Below, one piece after another: positions 17,576-22,245 of a stretch of DNA of 33,543 nt. The notes below the pieces were generated by a model. It had not been told where the DNA came from and did no database searches. It saw only the letters and a list, made by a program, of their open reading frames with translations. Location of the stretch: the NCBI GenBank assembly GCA_002841115.1, contig PHEC01000015.1, positions 1 through 33,543 on the forward strand. Direction: 5' to 3'. A program made the translations under genes and the position numbers. The first letter of the stretch is position 1, and every line of letters starts with the position of its first letter. Source of the DNA: Alphaproteobacteria bacterium HGW-Alphaproteobacteria-6. Its GTDB lineage: Bacteria > Pseudomonadota > Alphaproteobacteria > Rhodobacterales > Rhodobacteraceae.

Positions 17576-19951
17576 ATGAGCAGCGCCGATGAACCCGACG
17601 CCTTCGAGGCCGCGTCCCTCTCCGCCCGCGCGATGGCGGCGCGGCCGGCGCCCTATCTCGACGGGCTGAACCCCGCACAGCGCGCCGCGGTCGAGGCGCT
17701 GCAGGGGCCGGTCCTGATGCTCGCCGGCGCCGGCACCGGCAAGACCCGGGCGCTGACCGCGCGGATTGCGCATATTCTGGCGCGCGGGCAGGCGCGGCCG
17801 AACGAGATCCTCGCGGTCACCTTCACCAACAAGGCGGCGCGCGAGATGAAGGAGCGGGTCGGCCGGCTGATGGGCCAGACGGTCGAGGGCATGCCCTGGC
17901 TCGGCACCTTCCATTCGCTCTGCGCCCGGATGCTGCGCCGCCATGCCGAACTGGTCGGGCTGAAGTCCAACTTCACCATTCTCGACACCGACGACCAGAT
18001 CCGGCTGATGAAACAGCTGATCGCCGCCGCCAACATCGACGAGAAACGCTGGCCGGCGCGCCAGCTTGCCGGGCTGATCGACGGCTGGAAGAACCGCGCG
18101 ATCAGCCCCGACCGGGTGCCGGCGGCCGAGGCGGCCGGCTTCAACGGCATCGGCACCGAGCTTTACGCCGCCTATCAGGACCGGCTGCGGGTGCTGAACG
18201 CCACCGATTTCGGCGATCTTCTCCTGCATGTGGTGACCATCCTTCAGGCCCATCCGGACGTTCTGGCCGAGTATCAGCGCTGGCTGCGCTACATCCTTGT
18301 CGACGAATACCAGGACACCAATGTCGCGCAGTATCTGTGGCTCAGGCTGCTGGCGCAGGGGCACCGCAACATCTGCTGCGTCGGCGACGACGACCAGTCG
18401 ATCTATGGCTGGCGCGGCGCCGAGGTCGGCAACATCCTGCGCTTCGAGACGGATTTCCCCGGTGCCACGGTGATCCGGCTGGAACAGAACTACCGCTCGA
18501 CCGAACATATCCTTGCCGCCGCCTCGGGGCTGATCGCCGCCAATGCCGGACGGCTCGGCAAGACGCTGTGGACCGAGGCGCGGGGCGGCGAGAAGGTGCG
18601 CCTGATCGGCCACTGGGACGGCGAGGAAGAGGCGCGCTGGATCGGCGAGGAGGCCGAGGCGCTGCAACGCGGCACCAGGGGCATGGACCCGGTCGGCCTT
18701 GACGATCAGGCGATCCTGGTCCGCGCCAGCCACCAGATGCGCGCCTTCGAGGACCGTTTCCTGACCATCGGCCTGCCCTACCGGGTGATCGGCGGCCCGC
18801 GCTTCTACGAGCGGCTGGAGATTCGCGACGCGATGGCCTATTTCCGTCTCGCCGTCTCGCCCGCTGACGATCTGGCGTTCGAGCGGGTGGTCAACACCCC
18901 CAAGCGCGGGCTTGGCGACAAGGCGGTGCAGACCATCCAGATGCAGGCGCGCGAGGATGGCAGCAGCCTTCTGGACGGCGCGCGTCATGCCGTCGCATCC
19001 GGGCGGATCGGCGCCAGGGGCGGTGCGGCGCTGCGCGTCCTTGTCGAGGGCGTCGAGCGCTGGCACCGCGCGACGCAGGCGGCCGACCACGACCCTGTCC
19101 GGCTGGCCGAGACGATCCTTGACGAATCGGGCTATACCGCGATGTGGCAGGCCGACAAGACGCCCGAGGCGCCGGGCCGGTTGGAAAACCTCAAGGAACT
19201 GGTCAAGGCGCTGGAGCAGTTTCAGAACCTTCAGGGTTTTCTGGAACATGTCGCGCTGATCATGGACAACCAGAGCGAGGACGCGGCCGAGAAGATCACC
19301 ATCATGACGCTGCATGCCGCCAAGGGGCTGGAGTTTCCGGTGGTCTTCCTGCCGGGCTGGGAGGACGGGCTGTTTCCCTCGCAGCGCTCGATGGACGAAA
19401 GCGGGCTGAAGGGGCTGGAGGAGGAGCGCCGGCTGGCCTATGTCGGCATCACCCGGGCCGAACGGCTTGCCACCATCTCCTTTGCCGGCAACCGCCGGGT
19501 TTACGGCCAGTGGCAAAGCCAGCTGCCCTCGCGCTTCATCGACGAATTGCCGGCGGATGATGTCGAGGTGCTGACCCCGCCGGGGCTTTACGGCGGCGGT
19601 TTCGGTGCCGCCGGCATGGCTTCGGGCGGTGCAAGCGGGATCGAGGATCGCGCTGCGCGCGCCGATGTCTACAATTCGCCGGGCTGGAAACGGATGGCCG
19701 ACCGGGCCGCGACGCGCCCGCTCGGCCAGCCGCGCGAGGCGCGCCATGTGGTGATCGACCTTGACGCGATCTCGGCCTTCACCGAGGGCGACCGGGTGTT
19801 TCACACCAAGTTCGGCAATGGCACGGTCGAGGCGGTCGAGGGCGACAAGCTTTGCGTTGCCTTCGACAAGGCCGGGGTCAAGCATGTGCTGGCCGGTTTC
19901 GTGACCGCCGCCGATCTGGCCGCGCGGGCCGCCGACGACATTCCCTTCTGA
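17576..19951 (+). CDS. uvrD: UvrD/PcrA-type DNA helicase (superfamily 1A)
   Basis: 3'-5' DNA helicase for nucleotide excision repair, mismatch repair and clearing of stalled replication or transcription complexes. The 791-residue protein has all superfamily 1 motifs: Q motif LNPAQRAAVEAL (31-42), Walker A GAGTGKT (51-57), AVTFTNKAAREMKERV, the DEYQDTN Walker B box, VGDDDQSIYGWRGA, LEQNYRST, VNTPKRGLG, TLHAAKGLEFPVVFLPGWEDG and EERRLAYVGITRA. The C-terminal tail carries a Tudor-like FNHTKFG-type segment (GDRVFHTKFGNGTVEAVEGDKL, about residues 740-765) that in PcrA/UvrD contacts RNA polymerase. Start: ATG at 17576. The gene is convergent with the ccsR array. Confidence 0.95.
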   Translation: MSSADEPDAFEAASLSARAMAARPAPYLDGLNPAQRAAVEALQGPVLMLAGAGTGKTRALTARIAHILARGQARPNEILAVTFTNKAAREMKERVGRLMGQTVEGMPWLGTFHSLCARMLRRHAELVGLKSNFTILDTDDQIRLMKQLIAAANIDEKRWPARQLAGLIDGWKNRAISPDRVPAAEAAGFNGIGTELYAAYQDRLRVLNATDFGDLLLHVVTILQAHPDVLAEYQRWLRYILVDEYQDTNVAQYLWLRLLAQGHRNICCVGDDDQSIYGWRGAEVGNILRFETDFPGATVIRLEQNYRSTEHILAAASGLIAANAGRLGKTLWTEARGGEKVRLIGHWDGEEEARWIGEEAEALQRGTRGMDPVGLDDQAILVRASHQMRAFEDRFLTIGLPYRVIGGPRFYERLEIRDAMAYFRLAVSPADDLAFERVVNTPKRGLGDKAVQTIQMQAREDGSSLLDGARHAVASGRIGARGGAALRVLVEGVERWHRATQAADHDPVRLAETILDESGYTAMWQADKTPEAPGRLENLKELVKALEQFQNLQGFLEHVALIMDNQSEDAAEKITIMTLHAAKGLEFPVVFLPGWEDGLFPSQRSMDESGLKGLEEERRLAYVGITRAERLATISFAGNRRVYGQWQSQLPSRFIDELPADDVEVLTPPGLYGGGFGAAGMASGGASGIEDRAARADVYNSPGWKRMADRAATRPLGQPREARHVVIDLDAISAFTEGDRVFHTKFGNGTVEAVEGDKLCVAFDKAGVKHVLAGFVTAADLAARAADDIPF

Positions 19952-20079: not shown

Positions 20080-20154
20080 AAAAAAAACGGCGGCGCCCGG
20101 GAGGAGGTGGGCACCGCCGTTCACAACGCCGACCCCAGGGAGGAGGAGGGGGCC
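20080..20154 (-). ncRNA. ccsR4: CcsR-like small RNA, fourth unit, with terminator
   Basis: Two hairpins whose loops carry CCTCCTCCC on the minus strand, at 20138-20146 and 20099-20107. The first has a short stem (four G-C pairs, extendable by CCGAC/GTCGG at 20129-20133 and 20160-20164). The second has a 12-base stem (20087-20098 with 20109-20120, one mismatch) followed by seven T residues, so it also reads as an intrinsic terminator for the whole array. The symbol is assigned by analogy to the R. sphaeroides CcsR1-4 small RNAs, named for their conserved CCUCCUCCC motif. Confidence 0.8.
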
Positions 20155-20175
20155 TTCGTGTCGGTTGCAAAGAGA

Positions 20176-20246
20176 CGGCGGCACCCGGGAGGAGGTGGGC
20201 GCCGCCGCCCTTCACTGTGCCCGGCCCCAGGGAGGAGGAAGGGGCC
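20176..20246 (-). ncRNA. ccsR3: CcsR-like small RNA, third unit
   Basis: CCTCCTCCC loops on the minus strand at 20230-20238 (stem ggcccc 20223-20228 / ggggcc 20241-20246) and 20187-20195 (11-pair stem 20176-20186 / 20197-20207 with one mismatch, followed by TCTCTTT). Same two-hairpin plan as the other units. In R. sphaeroides the homologues act in oxidative stress and C1 metabolism and are cut from a common transcript; here this is inferred from the layout. Confidence 0.8.
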
Positions 20247-20293
20247 TTGCGCGTCCGCTCCGGAGTGCCCCTGCGGGGGGTCCGGTAGTTGGT

Positions 20294-20330
20294 CTGCCAA
20301 GGCGGCCGGTCGCGGCCGGTCCTGTGGCAG
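20294..20330 (-). ncRNA. Motif-free hairpin between the second and third CcsR units
   Basis: A 37-base hairpin built from ctgccaagg / cct(g)tggcag around an inner ggccg/cggcc stem. It has no CCTCCTCCC loop and fills the longest linker of the array (112 bases between motifs against about 40-61 for the other linkers). It could insulate or mark a processing boundary; it is seen in the sequence, its role is inferred. Confidence 0.45.
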
Positions 20331-20337
20331 GGAAGGT

Positions 20338-20409
20338 GCGGCGACCCCGAGGGAGGAGGTTCGGGATCGCCGCCCCTGTCACGGGCCCCCGGGAGGAGGT
20401 GGAGGCCCG
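20338..20409 (-). ncRNA. ccsR2: CcsR-like small RNA, second unit
   Basis: CCTCCTCCC loops on the minus strand at 20391-20399 (stem cgggcccc.../...aggcccg, one mismatch, 20382-20409) and 20351-20359 (long stem gcggcgaccccga / tcgggatcgccgc, one mismatch, 20338-20373). Motif spacing within the pair is 40 bases, close to the 39, 43 and 39 of the other pairs. Confidence 0.8.
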
Positions 20410-20448
20410 CAGTGCGTTTCCGGCGCCCTTCGGGGCCGGTATCAGGCA

Positions 20449-20521
20449 GCGGCGGCATCAGGGAGGAGGCGATGCCGCCGCTTGTCCCCGCGGCCCTCAG
20501 GGAGGAGGAGGAGGGCCGCGG
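20449..20521 (-). ncRNA. ccsR1: CcsR-like small RNA, first unit
   Basis: CCTCCTCCC loops on the minus strand at 20500-20508 and 20461-20469. Both stems are perfect 11-bp (20488-20498 with 20511-20521; 20449-20459 with 20471-20481). The unit starts ten bases after the DUF1127 stop codon, so it should be released from that mRNA by cleavage. Unequal stem sequences with identical loops show that the loop is what is conserved. Confidence 0.82.
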
Positions 20522-20530
20522 AAAGCTGTC

Positions 20531-20746
20531 TCAGTTGCCGTAGGCGGCCTCGATCGCGATCGAGTCGATCGTCGAGCGGTGCAGGCCGAGGTCGTTCAGG
20601 TCGCGGTCGCTGAGCAGGTTCAACTCGCGCACCGTCTCGCGGTAGACCCGGTAGCGCTGGCGCGCCTCGCGCAGGCCGACGAAGAAGGCGTGGATCCGCT
20701 CGGCAAGGCCGGTGTCGGCGCCGCGGATGAGGTTGATGCTGGCCAT
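20531..20746 (-). CDS. ccaF1: DUF1127 small protein, CcaF1-like
   Basis: A 71-residue, Arg-rich protein with the DUF1127 (YjiS-like) end: VRELNLLSDRDLNDLGLHRSTIDSIA. In R. sphaeroides the homologous gene RSP_6037 (ccaF1) is cotranscribed with CcsR1-4 and its product binds RNA and influences their maturation; the same order is seen here, with the first sRNA hairpin ten bases after the stop. Start: ATG at 20746 gives MASINLIRG, with AAAGGG about seven bases upstream; an open frame continues upstream but is unlike the family. In R. sphaeroides the promoter is of the RpoHI/RpoHII stress type; no clear match was found here. Confidence 0.88.
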   Translation of the reverse strand: MASINLIRGADTGLAERIHAFFVGLREARQRYRVYRETVRELNLLSDRDLNDLGLHRSTIDSIAIEAAYGN

Positions 20747-21480
20747 GTCATGTGCCCTTTCATTTCGCTTCGGCACCGCTATCGGCGCCGTTGTGATGAA
20801 GATGGACCTCATGCTGCGAGTGCACAATACCCCGCGGACTCAATGCCGCTATGCAGCAATTGCATGGCGTGCGGTTTCGATTTTGCCTTCCGTAACGGCA
20901 CGTTGCACAATTTTGTCACAATCGGGCGGGGGCGGCATGGCCCGTTGCGCGGTGCCGGATCGGGGCGCGTTCCGCGCCAGCGCGAGGGCGCCCGTTGCGG
21001 GGCGATGCGGATGGCAGATCAAGGTCCGCGCCCGCCCGCGCGAGGCCGCTGCGGGACCGGCGGCAGGGCGGGGCACAGGTCGTGATGCGTGGTTCGGCGG
21101 TTTTCCGGGCTTTCATGGCACCTGCCTGGGGTCGCCTCGATAAATCGAATCACGCATCGGTGTCAGGCCCGTGATTCGGTCGATATTTGGCAGGTTCACG
21201 ATAATTCCGGCCGGGTGATCGCCGCGTCTTGCAGGGATCCGGCACCGCCATCTGTGACTATTGTGCAGCATGCGGGATTTCATGGCACCGTGCAGGTCAA
21301 GAGAAATTTATCTATATGTGGTAGCTGGTATCTCTAAAAACTCAATTTGTGCTAGAGCTGATGAGATAATGCCACCGCCACTTCGCTTTTCGTTGCAATT
21401 CTTCGGCTCGATCGGCCTGGTTTTCCTGAGAGGTGAGAGAAGAAAATCGTTGCGTGGGGGTAAATCCCATGGCATCGATG
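20747..21480. other. Long intergenic region between ccaF1 and the dcw leader
   Basis: About 730 bases with no supported protein gene. It must hold the ccaF1 promoter (minus strand) and the dcw/UpsM promoter (plus strand). The part 21170-21480 is clearly more A/T-rich than the rest of the window. Seen within it: a hairpin with perfect 9-bp arms cgaatcacg (21146-21154) / cgtgattcg (21170-21178); two copies of tttcatggcacc about 170 bases apart (near 21112 and 21278); and a GATAAT -10-like hexamer at 21365-21370 without a clear -35. No tRNA, RNase P RNA or known riboswitch pattern was recognised. Confidence 0.5.
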
Positions 21481-21489
21481 ATCACACGA

Positions 21490-21710
21490 TGAGGACGGGC
21501 TGACAGACGGGGCAGCAAGACCCCAAAGAGGCGAAGTCAGGGTTCATACAGGCACCCGCTTTCATCCGACGAAGAAGATCCGGCGCGCGAGCGAGCAGCA
21601 TCCCCCCAGGTGGCATGCGCAGCCGGGCAAACCCGGCAACGGGACCCAGAGATGGGACGAGGGCGGCGGATCGGGCAGTGGCAGCAGCCCGATCCGCCGT
21701 TGTCGTATTT
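21490..21710 (+). ncRNA. upsM: UpsM-like small RNA from the mraZ 5' leader
   Basis: In Rhodobacter sphaeroides the abundant sRNA UpsM, about 200 nt, arises from the mraZ leader by partial termination and RNase E cleavage. Here the leader has the same plan: an intrinsic terminator at 21665-21710 placed 55 bases before mraZ, and several small hairpins upstream (ggggcagcaagacccc at about 21514-21529; gccggg-caaa-cccggc at 21622-21637). The 5' end is not seen directly and is set by expected length. Position next to ccaF1-ccsR also matches R. sphaeroides gene order as remembered. Confidence 0.6.
21665..21710 (+). terminator. Intrinsic terminator or attenuator before mraZ
   Basis: A perfect 12-bp stem ggcggatcgggc (21665-21676) / gcccgatccgcc (21687-21698) with a 10-base loop, followed by GTTGTCGTATTT. 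Located upstream of the first dcw gene, it would stop part of the transcripts and so both make the small RNA and limit dcw expression. Confidence 0.75.
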
Positions 21711-21765
21711 CCGGGCCGGGTCAGGACGGTGACGGGGGCAAGGACAGTGACGGGAGCGCGGGCCA

Positions 21766-22245
21766 TTGGCACGCAGGTTCAGAGGTTCGGGTATCTACAA
21801 GGTCGACGCGAAGGGTCGCGTCTCGATTCCCGCACCCTTTCGTCGCGTCATCGAGGCCTCGGACCCGGACTGGACGGAAGGCCAGCGCCCCAGCGTCGTC
21901 GTCGTCCATGGCCCGGAAGACCGCAAATGGCTTGAGGTCTTCTCGATGGAGGCGGTGAACGAGATCGACCAGCAGATCTCGCGGATGCAGCGCGCCTCGG
22001 AACATCGCCGCAGGAACGAGGATCTGATGTTCGGCCAGGTGGTCGAGTTGCAGGTCGACGATGACGGCCGGCTGTTGTTGCCGCAAAAGCTGCGCGACCA
22101 GATCGGGCTTGCGAGCGAGGCCTATTTCATCTCGGCCGGGGACTACTTCACCATCTGGAACCCCGAGACCCACAAGGCGATGGGCGGCTTCGACCCCGAT
22201 TACGACGATCCGCGGGTGCATCTGCCGCCGCTTGCGGGGCCCTGA
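21766..22245 (+). CDS. mraZ: Transcriptional regulator MraZ
   Basis: First gene of the division and cell wall cluster; a DNA-binding protein that usually represses its own operon. The 159-residue product has two AbrB-like SpoVT units (ARRFRGSGIYKVDAKGRVSIPAPFR at 2-26, and VVELQVDDDGRLLLPQKLRDQIGL around 95-118). Start: the codon at 21766 is TTG, the only start that gives the family N-terminus ARRFRG; a GGGAG lies about nine bases upstream. Clear MraZ boxes (repeated TGGG-type direct repeats) were not seen, only one GTGGGG at 21454. rsmH follows after three bases. Confidence 0.93.
   Translation: MARRFRGSGIYKVDAKGRVSIPAPFRRVIEASDPDWTEGQRPSVVVVHGPEDRKWLEVFSMEAVNEIDQQISRMQRASEHRRRNEDLMFGQVVELQVDDDGRLLLPQKLRDQIGLASEAYFISAGDYFTIWNPETHKAMGGFDPDYDDPRVHLPPLAGP

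Follow-up and report, generated by a model that had tools for sequence, protein, structure and literature searches.

Eight hairpins that present one and the same loop lie behind a small DUF1127 gene on the minus strand of an alphaproteobacterial contig. The question raised by this locus is what these hairpins would do in the cell, and what would switch them on. The window (the whole stretch of DNA that was analyzed) is 33,543 nucleotides long, and the features on which the answer depends are given below in the order of the expected transcript.

20851-20864, minus strand: TGCA-N6-GCAT, an LsrB-type site beginning at -73 of the predicted start; the genus element is present exactly at 20848-20865.
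20841-20855, plus strand: CAATGCCGCTATGCA, agreeing with 13/15 letters of the VtlR motif reported in PMC12595884 (two mismatches) and overlapping the LsrB-type site.
20811-20824, minus strand: a second TGCA-N6-GCAT (pattern match), 40 bases nearer the gene and overlapping the -35-like element.
20799-20827, minus strand: putative promoter TTGTGC-N17-CATCTT, from the genus alignment, with a predicted start near 20792.
20531-20746, minus strand: DUF1127 small-protein gene, ccaF1-like, 71 codons and a stop; PF06568 at 45.9 bits (cut-off 23.3).
20485-20524, minus strand: unit 1, hairpin 1; loop motif 20500-20508.
20448-20482, minus strand: unit 1, hairpin 2; loop motif 20461-20469; CcsR1 at 49.6 bits for 20444-20526.
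20381-20410, minus strand: unit 2, hairpin 3; loop motif 20391-20399.
20333-20377, minus strand: unit 2, hairpin 4; loop motif 20351-20359; CcsR1 at 57.4 bits for 20333-20417.
20257-20332, minus strand: spacer between units 2 and 3 with motif-free hairpins; fold z -3.59.
20223-20246, minus strand: unit 3, hairpin 5 (core stem); loop motif 20230-20238.
20170-20212, minus strand: unit 3, hairpin 6; loop motif 20187-20195; CcsR1 at 39.9 bits for 20170-20255.
20131-20154, minus strand: unit 4, hairpin 7 (core stem); loop motif 20138-20146.
20080-20122, minus strand: unit 4, hairpin 8, a hairpin with a putative intrinsic terminator; loop motif 20099-20107; T8 at 20080-20087; CcsR1 at 37.8 bits for 20082-20162.

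Exact copies of CCTCCTCCC were counted across the window. Eight were found, every one of them on the minus strand and within 20099-20508 (first bases 20099, 20138, 20187, 20230, 20351, 20391, 20461 and 20500), with no further exact copy in the window beyond those of the array. Dinucleotide shuffles of the window (n = 100) contained a mean of 0.60 and a maximum of 5 copies, vs. 8 in the real sequence. By folding, each of the four units consists of two hairpins with the motif in each loop, and the spacing within the four pairs, in transcript order, was 39, 40, 43 and 39. A sequence-only reading had claimed eight minus-strand hairpins with CCTCCTCCC loops in four pairs at these distances; the count and the folds agree with the former, and the spacings match exactly. 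Fold energies of the four units were -52.0, -51.3, -48.1 and -42.4 kcal/mol (z = -5.29, -4.30, -2.27 and -3.70), and three adjoining 86-nt stretches folded as controls gave z = -1.06, 0.14 and -1.48. In units 2 to 4 the stem of the second hairpin is longer than that of the first, the two in unit 1 being about equal (14 and 13 pairs), and CGGCG was read in the 5' arm of the second hairpin in 4/4 units. A run of T8 directly follows the stem of the last (eighth) hairpin, which is thereby a putative intrinsic terminator. Motif-free hairpins were additionally observed in the spacers, at 20257-20332 and about 20419-20443 on the minus strand, and in several congeners short GGGCC/GGCCC hairpins likewise lie between units. 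The source genome assembly (288 contigs, 87% complete) holds 13 copies of CCTCCTCCC, 8 of them in the array. Two of the five remaining copies read GGGAGGAGG on the complement, with an ATG following after 5 or 6 bases, and are ribosome-site-like; the surroundings of four of the five were inspected and none resembled two-hairpin units.

The gene immediately preceding the array, likewise on the minus strand, matches PF06568, as expected from the earlier claim that the hairpins lie downstream of a DUF1127 gene, and 22 bases separate its stop codon from the first loop motif. Neighboring genes are a uvrD-like gene (17576-19951, plus strand) and mraZ (21766-22245, plus strand). The stretch between the DUF1127 promoter and mraZ (20828-21765) is long and was covered by the Rfam scan. 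At gathering scores, Rfam detected nothing in the whole window except a tRNA. In R. sphaeroides, the dcw leader is reported to give rise to the sRNA UpsM (PMC8625941).

Family assignment was made from the Rfam scores and the layout. CcsR1 (RF02791), the name of which stands for Conserved CCUCCUCCC motif stress-induced RNA 1, matched all four units (E = 5.7e-13 to 3.6e-07), and its curated cut-off of 65.3 bits was reached by 0/4 of them (57.4, 49.6, 39.9 and 37.8 bits). As all units score below this cut-off, the array was assigned to the structural family and not to the Rfam entry. The 58.8-bit cut-off of ar14/NfeR1 (RF02344) was not reached either, the units scoring 30.9-42.9 bits and having two hairpins, not three. 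Judged by its sequence, the locus is a member of the cuckoo RNA/CIN1 group (ccaF1-CcsR type), a system already described: adjacent CCUCCUCCC-loop hairpins on variable stems, a DUF1127 gene upstream on the same strand and a putative 3' Rho-independent terminator were all found. The layout had been likened before to that of R. sphaeroides ccaF1-CcsR1-4, and it agrees with the description in PMC10253847.

Distribution among relatives was assessed with the covariance model and independently of the motif. CcsR1 matches at E 0.01 or better were obtained in 126/149 family genomes and 21/22 genus genomes (source genome included), and scores above the curated cut-off in 8/149 family genomes; among control genomes, 1/14 in the family search and 2/14 in the genus search had a match, all below the cut-off. 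The motif-independent sample was drawn by DUF1127 protein search and comprised the best 80 of 167 loci, 38 from Rhodobacterales and 42 from Rhizobiales (order taken from record titles). Within 1.7 kb downstream of DUF1127, at least two exact motifs were present in 33/38 Rhodobacterales loci, one in 4 and none in 1. The Rhizobiales loci of this best-80-of-167 sample had none downstream (0/42), and no locus of either order had an exact motif within 1.7 kb upstream (0/80). The largest arrays contain up to 14 motif copies; in three loci (L009, L038 and L041), 13-14 copies stand at nearly constant spacing, which suggests growth by (recent) tandem duplication. Array spacing in two congeners was identical to that of the Albidovulum inexpectatum and Defluviimonas sp. 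MAG loci, which makes Albidovulum/Defluviimonas the probable genus. One further locus (L538; genome G010, contig C8) has a DUF1127 gene, TGCA-N6-GCAT upstream and a single CCTCCTCCC downstream, and is perhaps a reduced array.

To compare loop and stem, hairpins with loops of 8-14 were called motif-blind in an Rfam-selected set of 88 loci, 70 of which had arrays of at least 4 motifs. The motif was exact in 387 of the 407 array hairpins, had one mismatch in 15 and two in 2, and was missing from 3; among the 49 hairpins from flanks of equal length, 3 came within two mismatches, including one exact copy. Because the Rfam model itself contains the motif, the 38 DUF1127-anchored Rhodobacterales loci were used as well, where 181/215 downstream hairpins carried the exact motif and 202/215 came within two mismatches, vs. 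0/34 upstream hairpins within two mismatches. Mismatched loop letters fell at positions 4-8 in 0/19 cases in the Rfam-selected set; in the DUF1127-anchored set, 26/33 fell at positions 1-3 and 6/33 at positions 4-8. Invariance of positions 4-8 was considered and is contradicted by the latter count (several such loops look unrelated), so the constancy of these positions is regarded as a tendency only. The stem test covered 570 copies from 87 arrays, with arm pairing defined as a score of 7 or more: the two arms of a copy paired with each other in 77.9% of cases, vs. 12.4% when one arm was taken from another genome and 14.5% when it came from a different copy within the genome, and 405 left and 394 right stem 10-mers were distinct. 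From the arm-pairing and loop-mismatch counts, stems swap letters yet keep their pairs and loops barely change. The constraint on the loop is far stronger than that on the stem. Strong selection on the loop, as had been proposed, is therefore borne out by loops that are kept within two mismatches while stems diverge, and loops as variable as the stems were looked for across the relatives and not observed. Spacing of the motifs in the 87 arrays had its main peak at 37-44 and another at 65-68, which indicates that the pair is the unit.

A constant loop of this kind could bind ribosome binding sites generally, or another GGAGG-containing RNA, and dampen translation globally with no chosen targets. 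Its most constant part includes CCUCC, the complement of GGAGG, with 0/19 and 6/33 mismatches at positions 4-8 in the two sets, and arrays of up to 14 copies would suit such a role. The loop motif differs, on the other hand, from what we take to be the 16S tail. FlhR mRNA is moreover the reported target of R. sphaeroides CcsR (PMC8307010), and general damping is regarded as unlikely.

The hairpins might also act in cis only, stabilizing or terminating the DUF1127 mRNA, the loop being a site for a protein, e.g. the DUF1127 protein, and not an antisense seed. CcaF1 of R. sphaeroides is reported to bind RNA and to be involved in CcsR maturation (PMC10253847), at least two motifs stand behind DUF1127 in 33/38 Rhodobacterales loci, and hairpin 8 is terminator-like, all in keeping with a cis role. 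The same loops occur, however, in NfeR1/ar14. In this sister sRNA, the CCUCCUCCC loops, for which the term anti-Shine-Dalgarno motif is in use (PMC3927594, PMC10746234), are described as anti-Shine-Dalgarno seeds at the ribosome binding site, and an ntrB fusion was lowered by NfeR1 and not by an NfeR1 mutated in the three loops (PMC10746234). A structural role is furthermore not expected to hold nine loop letters exact in 387/407 hairpins, and a cis-only function is accordingly judged quite improbable. That the array arose by chance, or is a mobile REP-like repeat with no RNA role, can be discarded for practical purposes: the genome is GC-rich, the units are in tandem and spacing is near-constant in some relatives' arrays, but the shuffle control, the fold z-scores, the position behind DUF1127 and the concentration of 8/13 genome copies at one place all argue against it, as do, for a mobile repeat, the surroundings of four of the five other copies, which are unlike hairpin units.

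The preferred reading is thus a ccaF1-CcsR operon producing sRNAs that act through their loops, and its control was sought in the promoter region. Alignment of 19 genus upstream regions revealed a long conserved block, containing in the window both the putative promoter and two copies of TGCA-N6-GCAT; the predicted start was placed seven bases past the -10 element. The full pattern of site and promoter was found in 17/38 relatives, with the site beginning at -73 in 15 and at -74 and -64 in the others. By itself TGCA-N6-GCAT is not rare (4 in the window vs. 1.4 expected); upstream of DUF1127 it was present in 33/38 Rhodobacterales loci vs. 1/38 control windows (shuffles predict 0.2 loci), and upstream of arrays in 69/87 vs. 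0/87 for the downstream control. The VtlR motif was found in the 38 loci with one mismatch in 9, with at most two in 23 and with at most three in 31; controls within three mismatches amounted to 0/38 windows and 1/380 shuffles. TGCA-N6-GCAT was absent from 5/38 relatives and from 36/42 Microvirga/Bosea-type DUF1127 loci (6/42 have it), and only 1/42 of the latter had the VtlR motif within three mismatches. A different candidate, the Agrobacterium VtlR box GCAT-N3-TG-N3-T, occurred in 9/38 Rhodobacterales and 13/42 Rhizobiales loci and was set aside because it gave no contrast between the orders.

Within the source genome, the genus element was found at three places with at most two mismatches, two of them before DUF1127 genes; the third, inside a long open reading frame, was taken as chance. 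The second DUF1127 gene of this genome (L525, 1205-1393, minus strand, contig C259; 60 bits) is preceded by the element at a distance of about 110 bases and lacks loop motifs downstream. High-scoring DUF1127 genes unlinked to arrays are likewise preceded by TGCA-N6-GCAT in four congeners. Across six genus genomes (source included), 30/34 DUF1127 matches were examined, and the site precedes 6/6 array-linked genes and 6/24 others, these being 5 of the 6 unlinked genes with the best scores and a gene followed by a single motif (0/17 among the remainder). A search with ar15, meant to lead to the regulator, was run under accession RF02345 (which we take to be ar15; the name returned by the search tool agreed) and gave no match in 190 genomes, a null result that does not show absence. 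A putative operator in the promoter, the mark of the LsrB/VtlR regulon, is present here as a sequence match. Literature linking LsrB or VtlR to ccaF1 or CcsR was not found among the matches listed, and the promoter element in front of the operon seems to be a candidate LsrB/VtlR-type operator, apparently new for ccaF1-CcsR.

Possible targets were searched for around ribosome binding sites. In the source genome, GGAGGAGG-N3..11-ATG occurred at 12 places vs. 0 for the backward pattern, and three of the 12 precede genes of PF13407 substrate-binding proteins (24 PF13407 matches, 23 over the cut-off), a target class reported for NfeR1 and AbcR (PMC10746234, PMC8844928). In five congeners, where GGAGGAGG was searched with N4..10, 1/54 PF13407 matches lay behind one of 91 places (91 kept of 95 rows, after two inside arrays and two overlapping duplicates were dropped); the backward pattern gave 0-10 per genome in other congeners vs. 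4-51 for the forward pattern. PF01547 matches and a control ribosome site, AAGGAGGA, were also collected. Transporter genes as targets, at 3/24 in the source genome but 1/54 in the congeners, were treated as not replicated. The target search around GGAGG that had been suggested for this array thus found three PF13407 genes with GGAGGAGG ribosome sites, a result that the congeners did not repeat and that is a weak test.

The same loop was also encountered in viral sequences. IMG/VR was scanned for two motifs 35-47 apart, which returned at least 120 stretches, and likewise at least 120 for the reversed motif used as control. Both copies lay in hairpin loops in 54/120 sampled viral stretches vs. 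1/120 for the reversed motif, and these 54 represent 26 array types with paired or triple hairpins (within L200-L319, e.g. L214, L254, L268 and L284). Neighboring genes were scanned for 26 arrays (25 of the 26 types, with L254 replacing L202; 30 proteins, 1-3 per array), and a PHROG-matching neighbor was present in 15 and absent from 11. Matches include a phage RNA polymerase (L268), a tail fibre (L284), a CI-like repressor (L229), a RecT-like protein (L238) and exonuclease VIII (L218); the match of L263 is weak, helicase, exonuclease and methyltransferase families are no proof of phage, and one helicase/exonuclease setting is common to five of the 15 arrays (L201, L211, L254, L281 and L298). 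A prophage edge effect behind the viral matches was considered and rejected (tRNA gene in 1/24 loci; PHROG neighbors in 15 arrays and none in 11). When eight viral array stretches were compared with named phages by BLAST, 1/8 gave matches. Rhizobium phage RHph_TM3_3_3 (MN988468.1, about 45744-45850) has two exact motifs 36 apart, at a place annotated solely as a hypothetical protein on the opposite strand; RHph_N28_2 has one exact motif, and none is present where Sinorhizobium phage phiLM21 matches. The window array itself gave two short matches (E = 0.01). TGCA-N6-GCAT was found upstream of 3/28 viral arrays, all of the three-hairpin type. Papers describing such phage hairpins were absent from the matches listed, and the phage sRNA review PMC12197685 did not contain the search terms; paired CCTCCTCCC-loop hairpins in phages seem, from these sequences, to be new. 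Same-loop hairpin pairs in phages point to a module that is functional beyond its home operon, and would be small systems for testing why nine loop letters stay fixed on changing stems.

The anatomy of the array, its conservation, the pairing of its stems and the operator-like element with its position are shown here, and on this basis we think it likely that the locus is a ccaF1-CcsR operon making loop-acting sRNAs and activated by a LysR regulator of the LsrB/VtlR kind. The single predicted transcript would begin about 46 bases before the DUF1127 gene, read through it and the four units, and stop at hairpin 8. Processing of CcsR in R. sphaeroides is reported to be by RNase E with the help of CcaF1 (PMC10253847, PMC8625941); by analogy, the 3' part would be cut by RNase E, with the help of the DUF1127 protein, into four sRNAs showing CCUCCUCCC loops. 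Through base pairing of the loops with ribosome binding sites that contain GGAGG, several mRNAs would be translated less, and the four near-equivalent units would mainly provide a higher dose. Transcription may be activated by the LysR-type regulator at TGCA-N6-GCAT, at about the position known from NfeR1, which is the new element of this proposal; if so, the operon and the second DUF1127 gene would belong to a regulon that has, to date, been described for Rhizobiales.

The array on its own adds one more example to a known family. The site fitting LsrB/VtlR bears on what besides RpoH controls ccaF1-CcsR, and if the proposal is true, the operator would bring the stress sRNAs of the two groups, Rhodobacteraceae and Rhizobiales, into a common regulon. 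More tentatively, and with the balance somewhat against it, the CcsR arrays of Rhodobacteraceae might share an ancient regulon with the NfeR1/AbcR sRNAs of Rhizobiales, each being a branch of it. A redox-sensing LysR regulator of LsrB/VtlR type would there drive DUF1127 proteins and RNAs with anti-Shine-Dalgarno loops, and alphaproteobacterial phages would have taken up the RNA module, some of them together with the operator, to influence this network in their hosts.

Compared by description, ccaF1-CcsR1-4 of Rhodobacter sphaeroides is alike in that four CCUCCUCCC-loop units and a terminator come after a 71-aa DUF1127 gene, all on one strand, whereas against the family model the window units score 37.8-57.4 bits with a cut-off of 65.3. 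The CIN1 type has an RpoHI/RpoHII promoter before the DUF1127 gene, where the window has the putative promoter TTGTGC-N17-CATCTT, conserved in the genus. With ar14/NfeR1 of Sinorhizobium meliloti the locus shares the loop sequence on unlike stems and a promoter TGCA-N6-GCAT at about equal distance from the start, there reported as the LsrB site that activates NfeR1 from -72 (PMC10746234); unlike the window, ar14/NfeR1 has three hairpins and its own sigma-70 promoter. The LsrB/VtlR regulon of Rhizobiales differs in that its regulator is described as confined to that order (PMC11975290), whereas the window operon is in Rhodobacteraceae. It is alike in combining DUF1127 genes with anti-Shine-Dalgarno sRNAs under one LysR regulator and similar DNA sites (PMC12595884, PMC7486931, PMC8844928), as in Brucella melitensis, where VtlR is reported as a positive regulator of the sRNA AbcR2 and three DUF1127 genes (PMC12595884).
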